DNA from: Lysobacteraceae bacterium
GTDB lineage: Bacteria; Pseudomonadota; Gammaproteobacteria; Xanthomonadales; Ahniellaceae
Length of the DNA stretch: 47,891 nt
Direction: 5' to 3'
Assembly: GCA_021299185.1 (NCBI GenBank)
Contig: JAJTHZ010000103.1
Coordinates: 1-47,891, forward strand
This document shows, piece by piece, positions 20,314-47,753 of this stretch. The position numbers and the translations under genes were made by a program. The number at the start of each line of letters is the position of its first letter. Position 1 is the stretch's first letter. The notes under the pieces are model-generated. The model made no database searches, had not been told where the DNA came from, and was given only the letters and a program-made list of their open reading frames with translations.

Positions 20314-20441
20314 TCACACGGTGCCCGCCGAACGCGGGCGCCGCACCTTCGGGACCCGGTTCAGCGGAACCAGCGCAGGGCGGGGGCCGCTTCAGCAGAT
20401 CAAGCATACGGCGGCAGCCGCGTCAGCAGACCGAGAACAGG

Positions 20442-20510
20442 GTGGGAGCCGCTTCAGCGGCGACTGCGCCACCCCCGATCGCCGCAGTCGCCGGCAGAGC
20501 CGGCTCCCAC
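20442..20510. repeat. REP/BIME element, type A
   Basis: Starts GTGGGAGCCGCTTCAGCGGC and ends GCCGGCTCCCAC, with inner arms GGCGACTGCG and CGCAGTCGCC, so the whole unit folds into one long imperfect hairpin. The same design recurs at 27343, 29707, 31635 and 32353. Confidence 0.85.
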
Positions 20511-31634: not shown

Positions 31635-31706
31635 GTGGGCGCCGCGTCAGGGGCGACTGCCCGCCACACCCTCGCGATGTCCGTCGCCGGCGAAGCCGGC
31701 TCCCAC
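31635..31706. repeat. REP/BIME element, type A
   Basis: GTGGGCGCCGCGTCAGGGGC at the left, GCCGGCTCCCAC at the right. It lies 29 bp after the pilS stop, on the downstream side of the RAYT pseudogene. Confidence 0.8.
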
Positions 31707-31782: not shown

Positions 31783-32265
31783 CTAGCGTTGGCCGCCGAA
31801 CCAGATGGCATTCCAGTACGGGTAGTCGCCCAAGCGACGCACCAAGCCAGCGCGAAGCGGATTCGCAACGACATAACGTGCGAAGTCGACCAGATCCTTC
31901 TCGCGTCGGACCGCGTGGTCGTGGTATCCGCGCTGCCAGATGCGCCCGAGGCCGCCACGGACACGCCCGACGCATCGCGCCGACTTCGCCTTGGCGCGCG
32001 CGACCAGTGTCGACAAGGGCACGGTCGCCCCCACCTCGACCAGGACGTGGCAATGGTCGGGCATCAGCACCCAGGCCAGCAGCCGACCGTCTTGCCAGGT
32101 CGCTCACACCCCGATCACGGCGGATGCCGGCGCCGCGAGTGACCAGTCCCGGAACAGCGGGCGTCGATTTGCCGTGGCGAAGGTGAGCAGGTAGACGCGA
32201 CCCGGCTCGGACCAGCGTCCGATTCGGAGGCAATGTTCCCCAGGGGCGCGCATCCGCAGGACCAT
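31783..32265 (-). pseudogene. REP-associated tyrosine transposase (RAYT), broken by an in-frame stop
   Basis: Read on the minus strand from ATG 32265 (or 32253), the frame starts HCLRIGRWSEPGRVYLLTF and continues to a TGA at 32104-32106. It then goes on in the same frame with the HUH motif LMPDHCHVLVEV and the region RIWQRGYHDHAVRREKDL, which holds the likely catalytic Tyr. It ends with ARYVVANPLRAGLVRRLGDY, split here before PYWNAIW. This is the complete layout of a RAYT, the Y1-type single-strand transposase linked to REP elements. Only the one stop (CGA to TGA is the simplest path) breaks it. The gene is bracketed by REP elements at 31635/31747 and 32353. Confidence 0.85.
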
Positions 32266-32352
32266 GGCGAAACAATGCGCCCCGCGCACCGAACAGGAGT
32301 CAGACGGAACGCCCGCCGTGCTGTAGGAATTCGCCCCGTCGTCGCGCCACCT

Positions 32353-32425
32353 TGTTGGGGCTGCTTCAGCGGCGACTGCCCGCCACACCCTCGCGAGGTC
32401 CATCGCCGGCGAAGCCGGCTCCCAC
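32353..32425. repeat. REP/BIME element, type A (diverged left end)
   Basis: Left end TTGGGGCTGCTTCAGCGGCG, right end GCCGGCTCCCAC. It is about 90 bp upstream of the RAYT start, completing the REP-RAYT-REP arrangement. The 330-bp interval between the RAYT and pilR holds nothing else I can identify. Confidence 0.78.
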
Positions 32426-32595
32426 AACACTGAACCCTTACCTCGCAAGCCCGCGCATGCTCCGCCTCCGGGACCGGCCTCAGCGGCGGCCTCGGCGCGC
32501 CAGCCCATGGCGCTGCAACCGCTCCCCGCCCCGCGCACCTTCCGCTAGCATCGGGGCCAACGCCTGCAGGGGCGGCCCCACCGAGCCCGAGAAGC

Positions 32596-42584: not shown

Positions 42585-43451
42585 ATGCTGGATGACGCGC
42601 TGGCCGTCGTGGCCGCCTGGCCGGCCACGACGGGCGGCCTGCTCGGCCTGCTGGTCGGCAGCTTCCTCAACGTCGTCATCCTGCGCCTGCCGCCGCGGCT
42701 GATGCACGGCTGGCGCGCGGACGCGCGCGAGCTGCTGGAACTGCCCGCCGCGACCGAAGCCGCGCCGCCGAACCTGGTGACGCGCGGTTCGCACTGCCCG
42801 AAGTGCGGCCACCGGCTGGCCTGGTGGGAGAACATCCCGGTGCTGTCGTGGCTGGCCCTGCGTGGGCGCTGCCGCGCCTGCGGCACCGCGATCTCGCTGC
42901 AGTACCCGCTGGTGGAGATCGCCACCGCCGTCCTGTCGACCCTGGTCGCGCTGCGCTTCGGCTACAGCGCCGAAACCGCCGTCGCCCTGCTTGTGACCTG
43001 GGTGCTGGTCGCGCTCACCGTGATCGACCTGCGGACCCAACTGCTGCCCGACCAACTCACGCTGCCGTTGCTCTGGCTGGGCCTGCTGTCGGCCGCCATG
43101 GGCCTGTTCCAGTCGCCGGCCGCCGCCATCGCCGGCGCTGCGGCGGGCTACCTCTCGCTCTGGTCGGTCTACTGGGTGTTCAAACTGCTGACCGGCAAGG
43201 AAGGCATGGGCTACGGGGACTTCAAGCTGCTCGGCGCGCTCGGCGCGTTCTGCGGCGTGATGGGCCTGCTGCCGATCATCCTGCTGTCGTCCCTGATCGG
43301 CGCGATCGTGGGCGGCACCTGGCTCGCGATCCGCGGTCGCGATCGCGCGACCCCGATCCCCTTCGGCCCCTTCCTCGCCGCCGCGGGCTGGGTGCAGTTC
43401 ATGTACGGCGACCGCATCCTCGCCCTGTGGCCCGGCATGGCGCCGCCGTGA
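42585..43451 (+). CDS. pilD: Prepilin leader peptidase/N-methyltransferase PilD
   Basis: A 288-residue membrane aspartyl protease that removes the leaders of both pilins and methylates the new N-terminus. The cytoplasmic zinc motif is complete: Cys71, Cys74, Cys96 and Cys99 (CPKC and CRAC). The catalytic Asp residues are Asp148 in LVALTVIDLR and Asp212 in GMGYGDFKLLGALGAF. About eight membrane helices are present. It starts 15 bp after pilC. Its stop codon overlaps the GTG of a decayed duplicate of the coaE start. Confidence 0.96.
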   Translation: MLDDALAVVAAWPATTGGLLGLLVGSFLNVVILRLPPRLMHGWRADARELLELPAATEAAPPNLVTRGSHCPKCGHRLAWWENIPVLSWLALRGRCRACGTAISLQYPLVEIATAVLSTLVALRFGYSAETAVALLVTWVLVALTVIDLRTQLLPDQLTLPLLWLGLLSAAMGLFQSPAAAIAGAAAGYLSLWSVYWVFKLLTGKEGMGYGDFKLLGALGAFCGVMGLLPIILLSSLIGAIVGGTWLAIRGRDRATPIPFGPFLAAAGWVQFMYGDRILALWPGMAPP

Positions 43452-43570
43452 TCGGTGCCACGGTACCGCTGCGCGTTGACCTGATGGTGACGGCAACAGC
43501 ATCCACGGTCCGTTGCCCAGCATGGTGCCGCCGTGGGTGATGCCGCGGCGCCACTGCGCGTCGGGCTGAC
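43435..43570 (+). repeat. Imperfect duplication of the pilD/coaE junction
   Basis: About 50 bp starting at 43435 (GCATGGCGCCGCCGTG) reappears with changes at 43520 (GCATGGTGCCGCCGTG), an offset of 85 bp. After the first copy, GTG 43448 opens a short frame whose residues A..PLRV.L resemble the coaE N-terminus. The first copy looks like a decayed original or duplicate start of coaE. Confidence 0.65.
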
Positions 43571-44165
43571 CGGCGGCATCGCCTCGGGCAAGAGCGCCGC
43601 GTGCAGCCGACTCGCCGCGCACGGGATCGTGGTGGTGGACGCCGATGTCGTCGCGCGCGAAGTCGTGGCTCCCGGTGAGCCCGCCCACGACGCCGTGGTA
43701 GCGCGCTTCGGCCCCGACGTGGTGGCCGCTGACGGCAGCCTCGATCGTGCCGCGCTGCGCACGCGCGTGTTCGCCGATCCGGCCGAGCGACGCGCGCTCG
43801 AAGCCATCGTCCATCCCGCCGTGCGCGAGCGCATGCGCCGCCAGGCGGATGCGGCGACGGGTCCCTACGTGGTGCTGGCGATCCCGCTGCTCGCCGAGTC
43901 CGGGGCCGACTACGGCTGGCTGGACGTCGTGGTCGTCATCGACGTGCCGGAAGCCGTGCAACTGTCGCGCCTGCTCGCCCGCGACGGCAACACCGAAGCC
44001 CTCGCGCGGGCCATGATCGCCGCCCAGGCACCGCGCGAACGTCGTCTCGCGATCGCCGACGAGGTGATCGACAACGGCGGTTCCCTGCACGACCTGCACG
44101 CCGCCATCGACGCCCTGCACCAGCGCCTCCTGCAACGCGCCGCCACCCACCCGCCCGCCCCGTAG
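43533..44165 (+). CDS. coaE: Dephospho-CoA kinase
   Basis: A 210-residue kinase for the last step of coenzyme A synthesis. The P-loop is VGLTGGIASGKSAAC (about residues 10-24). The lid and CoA-binding regions show VVDADVVAREV, HPAVRERM and LAIPLLAESG. GTG 43533 gives a short N-terminus before the P-loop. The gene follows pilD as in many gammaproteobacteria. The stop TAG is formed by the first repeat of the array that starts at 44162. Confidence 0.94.
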   Translation: MGDAAAPLRVGLTGGIASGKSAACSRLAAHGIVVVDADVVAREVVAPGEPAHDAVVARFGPDVVAADGSLDRAALRTRVFADPAERRALEAIVHPAVRERMRRQADAATGPYVVLAIPLLAESGADYGWLDVVVVIDVPEAVQLSRLLARDGNTEALARAMIAAQAPRERRLAIADEVIDNGGSLHDLHAAIDALHQRLLQRAATHPPAP

Positions 44166-44757
44166 GCGCGCGCTTGCGCGCGACCGCCCCATCCGATCTT
44201 GCCGCTGCGCGCGAGGTGCCGGTCGCGCGCAAAGCAGTCGCGCAATTGTAGGAGCCCGCTTGCGGGCGACCGCCCCATCCGGGTCTTGCCGCCACGCGCG
44301 AGGTGCCGGCCGCGCGCGAAGCCGGCGCGCTGTTGTAGGAGCCCGCTTGCGGGCGACCGCCCCCCGGGTCTTGGCGCGGCGCGCGAGGTGCCGGTCGCGC
44401 GCAAAGCCGGCGCGGCGTTGTAGGAGCCCGCTTGCGGGCGACCGCCCCACCCGGATCTTGCCGCCGCGCGCGAGGTGCCGGTCGCGCGCAAAGCCGGCGC
44501 GCTGTTGTAGGAGCCCGCTTGCGGGCGATCGCCCCATCCGGGTCTTGCCGCGGCACGCGAGGTGCCGGTCGCGCGCAAGCGCGCTCCTACGCAAAGGCGT
44601 CGCGCTGTTGTGGGGGCCCGCTTGCGGGCGACCGCCCCATCCGGGTCTTGGCGCGGCGCGCGAGGTGCCGGTCGCGCGCAAGCGCGCTCCTACGCAACGG
44701 CGTCGTAGGGCGACCGCCCCATCCGGATCTTGCCGCCGCGCGCGAGGTGCGCGCCGC
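44162..44757. repeat. Tandem BIME array, about 7 units of roughly 86 bp
   Basis: Units begin near 44162, 44248, 44335, 44420, 44507, 44610 and 44704. Each starts GTAGGAGCCCGCTTGCGGGC or a variant, then CGACCGCCCCATCCGG, then GAGGTGCCGGTCGCGCGC. Forward and reverse REP halves alternate, so each unit can fold. The array fills the convergent gap between coaE and bamD, leaving no room for a gene. Confidence 0.9.
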
Positions 44758-45599: not shown

Positions 45600-45661
45600 G
45601 GGAAGGGCGGCGGCGTCCTAGAATGGGCCGTCGATCATACCCCGAAGGCCCGGCCCCGGCC

Positions 45662-46657
45662 ATGAACGGAAACCTTACGAACCCCACGCCCACCCGGGTC
45701 GAACGCAGCGCCCAGGTGCCCCTGGCGCTGGCGGGCCAGCGCCTGGACCGCGTGGTGGCCGAGATCTTCCCGGACTTCTCGCGCAGCCGGCTGGCCGACT
45801 GGATCAAGGCCGGCCACCTGACCGTCGACGGCCGGCCCGCCCGCCCGCGCGACCCGATGGCCGGCGGCGAGACGCTGTCCCTGGCGGTGGACCTCGAGCG
45901 CCAGGTGGAAGCCGCCGGGGAAGCGATCGACCTGGTCCTGGTGCACGAAGACAAGCACCTGTTCATCGTCGACAAACCGCCCGGCCTGGTCGTGCACCCC
46001 GGCGCCGGCAACCCGGCCGGCACCCTGCAGAACGCCCTGCTGCACCGCGACCCCAAACTGGCCGAGATCCCACGCGCCGGCATCGTGCATCGCCTCGACA
46101 AGGACACCAGCGGCGTGATGGTCGTCGCGCGCACCCTGGCCGCGCACACGCGGCTGGTGGAGATGATCGCCGCGCGCGAGGTGCACCGCCGCTACGAAGC
46201 CGTGGTCTACGGCGCCATCGTCGCCGGCGGCACCATCGACGCGCCGATCGGCCGCCACCGCCACGAGCGCACCAGGATGGCGGTGCTGGAAGAGGACGAA
46301 TCCGCGCGCGAGGCCGTCACCCACTATCGCGTGCGCGAGCGCTACCGCGCCCACACGCGCGTGCAGGTGGACCTCGAAACCGGCCGCACGCACCAGATCC
46401 GCGTGCACTTCGCCCACATCCGCCACCCCTTGATCGGCGATCCGGTCTACGGCGGCCTGAAACTGCCCAAGGGCGCTTCCGACGATTTCGTCGCGGTGCT
46501 GCGCGGCTTCCGTCGCCAGGCCCTGCACGCCGAGCGCCTGGAATTCCCGCACCCGGTGACCGGCAAGCCGATCGTCGCCGAAGCCAAGCGCCCGCCTGAT
46601 CTCGATGCGCTGATCGCCGCGCTGCGCGCGGACCTGCGCGAGCATCCCGAGCGGTGA
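45662..46657 (+). CDS. rluD: 23S rRNA pseudouridine(1911/1915/1917) synthase
   Basis: A 331-residue RluA-family enzyme. An N-terminal S4 domain (about 20-80, with [21 protein letters not shown], split here) precedes the catalytic domain. The catalytic Asp146 lies in [16 protein letters not shown]. Further motifs are [35 protein letters not shown] and DPVYGG. The start at ATG 45662 is preferred over an upstream in-frame start at 45623. The rluD-pgeF pair divergent from bamD is conserved in gammaproteobacteria. Confidence 0.95.
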
Positions 46658-46721: not shown

Positions 46722-47753
46722 GTGATCGACGGCTGGCTCGACGCCGACTGGCCTGCACCGCCCGGCGTGCGCGCCGGCACCACCACGCGCCGCTTCCCCG
46801 GCGTGTCGCAGCCGCCTTACGACCGCGCCAACTTCGGCACCCGCGGTGGCGACGACCCCGCCGCCGTCGCCCGCAACCGCGCGCTGCTGCACGAAACCCT
46901 GCGACTGCCCTCGGATCCGCGCTGGCTGCACCAGGTCCACGGCACCACGGTCGCCTGCTTCGACTCCGCGTCCATCGCCCTTGTGGGAGCCGCTTCAGGC
47001 GGCGATGCTCTCGCCTCCCGACCCCCCGGCAACAATTCGACACCCTCTGTGGGAGCCGCTTCAGGCGGCGATGCTCTCGACTCCCGCCCGCCCGGCAGCA
47101 ATTCGACACCCTCTGTGGGAGCCGCTTCAGGCGGCGATGCTCTCGACTCCCGCCCTCACGGCAACAATTCGACACCCTCTGTGGAAGCCGCTTCAGCGGC
47201 AACTGCGACCTGCGCACGGTCGGTCGCAGCCGCGGATTGCGAGGGCAGCGAACCCCAGGCCGACGCCGCCGTCACCCGAACCCCCGGCATTGTCCTCGCC
47301 ATCCTCACCGCCGACTGCCTGCCCGTCGTCTTCGCCACCGACGACGGCAGCGTGATCGCCGCCGCCCACGCCGGCTGGCGCGGCCTCGCCGCCGGCGTGC
47401 TCGAAGCCACGATCGACGCCATGCGCGCCGATCCCGCGCGCATCATCGCCTGGCTCGGCCCCGCCGCCGGCCCCGCCGCCTACGAAGTCGGCGAGGACGT
47501 CCGCAGCGCCTTCGTCGACCACGACCCACCCGCCGCCGCCGCCTTCACCCCCACGCGCCCCGGCCACTGGCACTGCAACCTGTACGCCCTCGCACGCCGC
47601 CGGCTCACCGCGCGCAATCTCACCCGCGTGACCGGCGGCACACACTGCACGATCACCGATCGGGAACGCTACTACTCGCACCGCCGTGACCAGCGGACGG
47701 GGCGGATGGTGACTGTCGTGTGGCGAGATGATGTCGACGTGACACCGGACTGA
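46722..47753 (+). CDS. pgeF: Purine nucleoside phosphorylase-like PgeF (YfiH) with a repeat insertion
   Basis: A 343-residue copper-laccase-fold protein, about 100 residues longer than E. coli PgeF. Family marks are WPAPPGVRAGTTTR, RWLHQVHGTTVA, ADAAVTRTPG, TADCLPVVFA (metal Cys), AAAHAGWRGLAAGV (metal His), WLGPAAGPAAYEVG and the end YYSHRRDQRTGRM. PgeF hydrolyses mis-made L-Ser-containing UDP-MurNAc precursors and acts on nucleosides. Between VHGTTVA and ADAAV an in-frame insert of about 90 residues, made of REP-derived repeats, replaces a linker of about 11. The stop TGA coincides with the first bases of the IS end. GTG 46686 is an alternative start. Confidence 0.88.
   Translation: MIDGWLDADWPAPPGVRAGTTTRRFPGVSQPPYDRANFGTRGGDDPAAVARNRALLHETLRLPSDPRWLHQVHGTTVACFDSASIALVGAASGGDALASRPPGNNSTPSVGAASGGDALDSRPPGSNSTPSVGAASGGDALDSRPHGNNSTPSVEAASAATATCARSVAAADCEGSEPQADAAVTRTPGIVLAILTADCLPVVFATDDGSVIAAAHAGWRGLAAGVLEATIDAMRADPARIIAWLGPAAGPAAYEVGEDVRSAFVDHDPPAAAAFTPTRPGHWHCNLYALARRRLTARNLTRVTGGTHCTITDRERYYSHRRDQRTGRMVTVVWRDDVDVTPD
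46983..47220 (+). repeat. In-frame REP-derived tandem repeat inside pgeF
   Basis: Units start at 46983, 47049, 47115 and 47181, exactly 66 bp (22 codons) apart. Each begins GTGGGAGCCGCTTCAGGCGG, the type A REP left arm with one extra G; the fourth is a diverged partial copy closer to the genomic REP. The three full units differ at only a few bases and encode peptides beginning VGAASGGDAL. Confidence 0.92.

Follow-up and report, generated by a model that had tools for sequence, protein, structure and literature searches.

The window, that is, the whole analysed stretch of 47,891 nucleotides, is contig C219 of a 4.84 Mb draft genome in 270 contigs. Two adjacent genes lie in the same orientation near its end, and the second of them contains an unusually long linker:

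45623 to 46657, + strand: RNA pseudouridine synthase gene (rluD-like; PF00849, E 3.9e-32, and PF01479), intact, directly upstream of pgeF
46722 to 47753, + strand: pgeF (yfiH; Cu-oxidase_4, peptidoglycan editing factor), 343 aa, putative GTG start at 46722
46941 to 47327 (approximate), + strand: PgeF linker from QVHG to TADC, 129 aa, holding the insert; residues 92-174 predicted to be disordered

In E. coli, too, yfiH is placed after an rluD-like gene. The PgeF protein of the window matches PF02578 with an E value of 1.9e-72 (244 bits versus the Pfam cut-off of 23) and passes the TIGR00726 PgeF equivalog model (188.4 versus 141 bits); it stays below the cut-off of the narrower YfiH model NF007998 (266 versus 369). 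The catalytic residues His73, Cys199 and His216 are all present, in columns that are invariant in a 60-sequence alignment, and the structural model of the protein matches the YfiH fold (E 1e-32). A genome search revealed a single copy of pgeF, the frame of which is open throughout, insert included, and the nearest named relatives by PgeF sequence are Lysobacterales. Judged by its sequence, the protein is an intact family member with the catalytic His-Cys-His and a predicted enzyme activity. Fold and catalytic residues are shared with YfiH/PgeF (7f3v and 1z9t; PMC8844914), from which it differs by a disordered insert of about 86 residues in the loop that follows the VHG strand.

The size of this insert follows from the length of the segment between VHG and TADC, 129 aa in the window PgeF versus usually 36-45 aa in relatives, the empty-site state of the window species being read from other genera. 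The first-pass annotation had proposed a gain of about 90 residues between VHG and ADA; its position is correct, and its size is better given as about 86. In the AlphaFold model, the PgeF core is predicted with high confidence (pLDDT 94-98), whereas residues 92-174 show values of about 35-45 and no structure, so that the insert loops out of a confident core. Residues 79-177 align with residues 77-85 of YfiH, and YfiH residues 79-85 form a solvent-exposed loop that is disordered in some crystal chains (PMC8844914). By prediction and homology, the PgeF insert is therefore located in a loop whose flexibility had been recognised before, in agreement with the earlier suggestion that a surface loop tolerates it.

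The linker is built of three tandem units followed by a separate repetitive element:

46982 to 47047, + strand: 66-bp unit 1, a 24-bp REP arm plus a 42-bp spacer, read as (L)VGAASGGDALASRPPGNNSTP
47048 to 47113, + strand: 66-bp unit 2, read as SVGAASGGDALDSRPPGSNSTP
47114 to 47179, + strand: 66-bp unit 3, read as SVGAASGGDALDSRPHGNNSTP
47180 to 47234, + strand: separate common-type REP and its flank, with hairpins GCCGC-TTCA-GCGGC and TGCGACC..GGTCGCA; fold -30.1 kcal/mol

Pairwise identity among the three units is 62, 62 and 63 of 66 bases, and TRF reports a period of 66 with 3.4 copies and 93% matches, which confirms the proposed tandem amplification. Every unit opens with the 24-bp REP arm TGTGGGAGCCGCTTCAGGCGGCGA, and all REP arms in pgeF have the + orientation. 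The arm GTGGGAGCCGCTTCAG, allowing at most 2 mismatches, occurs 10 times in the window versus 0.07 expected. The arms of the pgeF units match REPs of their own genome and the frame remains open, as expected for REP-derived repeats carried in frame. They are, however, not the same as the arms of the intergenic REPs, as had been assumed: the three units carry a minor REP variant with an extra G (GCCGCTTCAGGCGGC), unlike the common intergenic type, and this variant was found at only three other loci of the genome (one pair in contig C35 and single copies in C114 and C230). The REP share of each unit is limited to the 24 bp of the arm; the 42-bp spacer had no genomic copy in the stretches searched, its best scores lying within the shuffled range.

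The three near-identical units had been described together with a diverged fourth, and this last part could not be retained. Only the 22 bp from 47180 to 47201 resemble the unit arm; beyond them the sequence diverges (29-30 of 66 positions overall versus the units), and what follows agrees with an intergenic REP of contig C239 (L071) at 34 of 36 positions. The REP at 47180 is of the common type GCCGCTTCAGCGGC (also given as TGTGGAAGCCGCTTCAGCGGCAACTGCGACCTGCGC). The linker thus consists of a variant REP plus spacer, repeated three times, and one common REP. Since the units differ at 5-6% of positions, with both changed and silent codon positions affected, their expansion is not brand new; their high identity fits the recent expansion suggested earlier, provided that recency is taken as relative.

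These elements agree with the general features of REPs. With a strict pattern, 159 REP matches are obtained across the genome and none with a reversed control, and at least three arm types can be distinguished. The pgeF arms are high-copy palindromes in the 20-40 bp range, with hairpin arms GCCGC/GCGGC, and they begin with GTGG, in keeping with the GTRG tag. Elsewhere in the genome, many clusters contain +/- REP pairs about 47 bp apart, i.e. a BIME-type organisation. The genome encodes four Y1_Tnp genes, all above the cut-off, as expected of a genome with RAYTs. One of them lies in the window and is a possible candidate for the source of REP mobility:

31786 to 32544, - strand: Y1_Tnp, RAYT-like transposase remnant, interrupted by an in-frame TGA; REPs of two types flank it at 31685, 31747 and 32404

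To be regarded as intragenic, a REP cluster had to be spanned by an open frame whose codon use resembled that of coding sequence on either side of it. REP context in this genome was read from stretches covering about 63 of the clusters, and among the approximately 60 clusters tested pgeF provided the only convincing case. L178 was rejected, as the repeat lies upstream of the likely gene start, and so was the REP at C230:13346, where the gene ends inside the REP. At this last site (L067, about 2349-2370; C230:13346-13369), the stop codon of the upstream gene is supplied by the REP, as described for GTAG REPs. In two further genomes, G364 and G125, 34 and 27 clusters were tested; they gave one candidate besides pgeF, which had been included deliberately. 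This candidate, L235 of G364, was discarded as an intragenic repeat: it lies in a long repeat array in which several frames are open and none makes a convincing gene. Across the three genomes, none of about 118 other repeat clusters was convincingly intragenic, a baseline taken from stretches and not from a systematic survey of genes, with two of the three genomes chosen for their pgeF.

When the insert-bearing protein was compared with 398 members of the order, two other genomes matched in one piece. A survey with a short-linker PgeF query covered 80 genomes from 32 genera of family f2 and 80 genomes of family f12, and split matches with long linkers were present in 10 and 3 of them, respectively. 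All 13 of these long linkers, palindromic or not, are in frame and free of stops; the expectation under indifference to frame is (1/3)^13, or about (1/3)^7 if one event per genus is assumed. Clear palindromic repeats were recognised in 11 of the 13, from six further Lysobacterales genera, with copy numbers below referring to the pattern GRGAGGGYYGGGGWGRGG (controls 0-1):

G125 and G364 (genus g58): 62 and 79 copies; the matches listed include sites inside pgeF of both
G244, G279 and G344 (g75): 63, 68 and 15 copies
G303 (g27): 16 copies; the repeat of the insert itself is a near variant of the pattern
G338 (g77): 12 copies
G277 (g70): a pair of adjacent but different repeats, both present in many copies elsewhere in the genome
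G341, G353 and G381 (g93): assigned from palindrome structure by eye and a hairpin scan, not from copy numbers

Together with the window genome, at least seven genera and three families carry palindromic inserts of unrelated repeat types in this linker. The added length ranges from about 18 to 139 aa, and neither sequence nor length is common to the inserts. G334, a congener of G277, has 88 matches to the query in its genome yet a linker of 37 aa, and G224 likewise has a short one. The linkers of G308 and G135, which complete the 13, and the smaller extension in G115 contain no clear palindrome and were left out of the count of repeat insertions. Long pgeF linkers lacking a clear genome-wide palindrome were observed at L214, L212 and L216.

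The first-pass annotation had named, as evidence that would refute its reading, a same-length but unrelated insert in relatives. Half of this was found: inserts at the same site are indeed unrelated, but they occur in other genera and differ in length. Unrelated palindromic inserts at the same site in other genera, for most of which derivation from repeats of the respective genome was shown, turn a single curiosity into a recurrent pattern. In a tree of the cores, from which the linker was removed, 8 changes are required for the 12 palindrome-bearing genes, and well-supported branches force only 3 of these; the unrelated insert sequences are the stronger argument and suggest separate origins more forcefully than this tree does. 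Tandem amplification is also found in other pgeF linkers, where a 15-bp period is repeated 9.5 times in G125 and 6.1 times in G364. The tandem periods in pgeF linkers (15 and 66 bp) are multiples of 3, whereas the intergenic REP arrays in the window, with periods of 31, 87 and 103, include two (31 and 103) that are not. In the pgeF linkers of two congeneric genomes (L206, 1997-2138, and L215, 1711-1800), 15-bp tandems that differ from each other and encode Gly-rich repeats lie beside palindromic repeats.

Intragenic REPs as such have been described previously. According to the main text of PMC3733652 (BMC Genomics 2013), GTAG/GTRG REP dimers and clusters occur within ORFs of known proteins, usually adding 20-30 aa and, in the case of clusters, up to 43-82 aa; they were proposed to be neutral on account of their location in flexible linkers or loops, and recB of two Xanthomonas species carries different REPs at about the same site. 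As presented there, these REPs affect many genes, mostly at different sites, whereas here one pgeF loop is hit repeatedly across genera, and the pgeF inserts further include palindromes of another type and in-frame tandem amplification. Neither YfiH nor laccase is mentioned in that main text. The comparison with Rickettsia made in the first-pass annotation holds for in-frame insertion, though the intragenic GTAG/GTRG REPs (PMC3733652) are a closer precedent. The RPEs of Rickettsia (Ogata and Claverie 2000-2003), as cited in PMC6649704 and PMC3733652, are palindromic repeats that have entered genes of functional proteins in frame and are translated with them, and the pgeF insert resembles them as an in-frame insertion in a functional ORF. 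To judge from these citations, RPEs decorate many genes within one genus, whereas pgeF is the one convincing case among about 60 clusters here; unlike RPEs, the pgeF inserts are unrelated between genera, share one site and show direct-repeat amplification of the inserted unit. Palindromic DNA is likewise kept inside coding genes of nematomorph mitochondria, but there it consists of long perfect inverted repeats, whereas the pgeF repeats are dispersed genomic repeats (PMC6649704). A literature search, covering PMC3733652 by its main text, found no report of recurrent pgeF invasion. A known process, intragenic REP insertion, is here concentrated on one loop of one gene, and its recurrence across genera is the new result. 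This loop amounts to a repeated natural experiment in which non-coding repeat DNA becomes protein, in at least seven genera and always in frame. It makes testable how palindromes enter genes, how they are filtered by frame selection and whether the peptides ever acquire a role, and it cautions annotators and structural biologists that the PgeF linker is not a conserved sequence.

The best supported explanation, which we consider likely, is a tolerated insertion of REPs into the disordered pgeF loop under frame selection. It is built on the REP identity of the arms, the kept frame, the tandem structure, the intact core and the recurrence with unrelated repeats. REPs would have entered the segment of pgeF encoding the exposed, disordered loop between the VHG and ADA strands, possibly driven by a putative cognate RAYT. 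Two direct REP arms 66 bp apart would then permit tandem duplication of the intervening 66-bp segment, by recombination or slippage as far as the structure of the array suggests; the array has its end within the arm of another, independent REP, which is what duplication between direct repeats would produce. Only insertions and duplications that keep the frame would persist, since Cys199 and His216 belong to the second half of the enzyme, and this half still has to be synthesised. Once translated, the REP-derived stretch of about 86 residues would protrude as a disordered peptide that is in all likelihood neutral or close to neutral. The same tolerant loop would have been entered independently by different palindromic repeats in several Lysobacterales genera, and it seems to accept incoming repeat DNA again and again.

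Loop tolerance alone leaves unexplained why pgeF, rather than many other genes with loops, was hit repeatedly. A true hotspot, where DNA, transcription or repeat transposition would direct palindromes to this linker beyond what the loop tolerates, we regard as a tentative, somewhat unlikely alternative. It is favoured by pgeF being the sole convincing intragenic case in three genomes against none among the other clusters, by the number of genera and families hit with unrelated repeat types, and by the 8 changes needed in the core tree. On the other hand, a tolerant loop and frame selection already account for the position, the expansions of G308, G135 and G115 without repeats are expected for a loosely constrained loop, and the baseline is neither systematic across genes nor free of genomes picked for their pgeF. 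That the loop captures unrelated repeats preferentially, keeps their frame and amplifies them, via target preference or favoured disorder, appears rather unlikely. Co-option, with the long disordered linker or mRNA hairpins modifying the activity, partners or folding of PgeF, could explain repeated in-frame retention in several genera and the amplification of translated units more than once; it is nevertheless improbable, as the inserts have no common sequence or length and most relatives manage without one. Nor do the inserts show a convincing preference, among the six frames, for the one least prone to order (mean rank 2.7 of 6). The term "domesticated", used in the first-pass annotation, implies a benefit that is unsupported.

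Two other readings question whether the insert is translated or real. The draft state of the genome, with its many contigs, might point to a mis-assembly at the repeat or to a decayed pgeF. Such an artefact or pseudogene is very unlikely given the intact frame and catalytic residues of a sole pgeF copy, units told apart by their own differences, and equivalent inserts in genomes of 1-3 contigs (G338, G341 and G277). The hairpins in the mRNA of the insert would also suit translational bypassing, for which PMC6649704 cites palindromes of yeast mitochondria and whereby the insert would be transcribed and left untranslated. This seems scarcely credible: bypassing requires neither multiples of three nor freedom from stops, yet the 13 surveyed long linkers and that of the window have both.

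Outside pgeF, the window contains several other repeat arrays. Between convergent coaE-like and bamD-like genes, a large intergenic array extends from 44162 to 44705, in which a GTAG-type REP (GTAGGAGCCCGCTTGCGGGCGACC...) is tandemly repeated, with an 87-bp unit present 4.8 times; it is overlapped by an array with a period of 103 bp. A degenerate REP-like tandem of 31 bp, a non-multiple of 3, is located at 20350-20458 between M23-peptidase-like and secA-like genes, and an imperfect direct duplication of 85 bp surrounds the start of the coaE-like gene (43405-43561).
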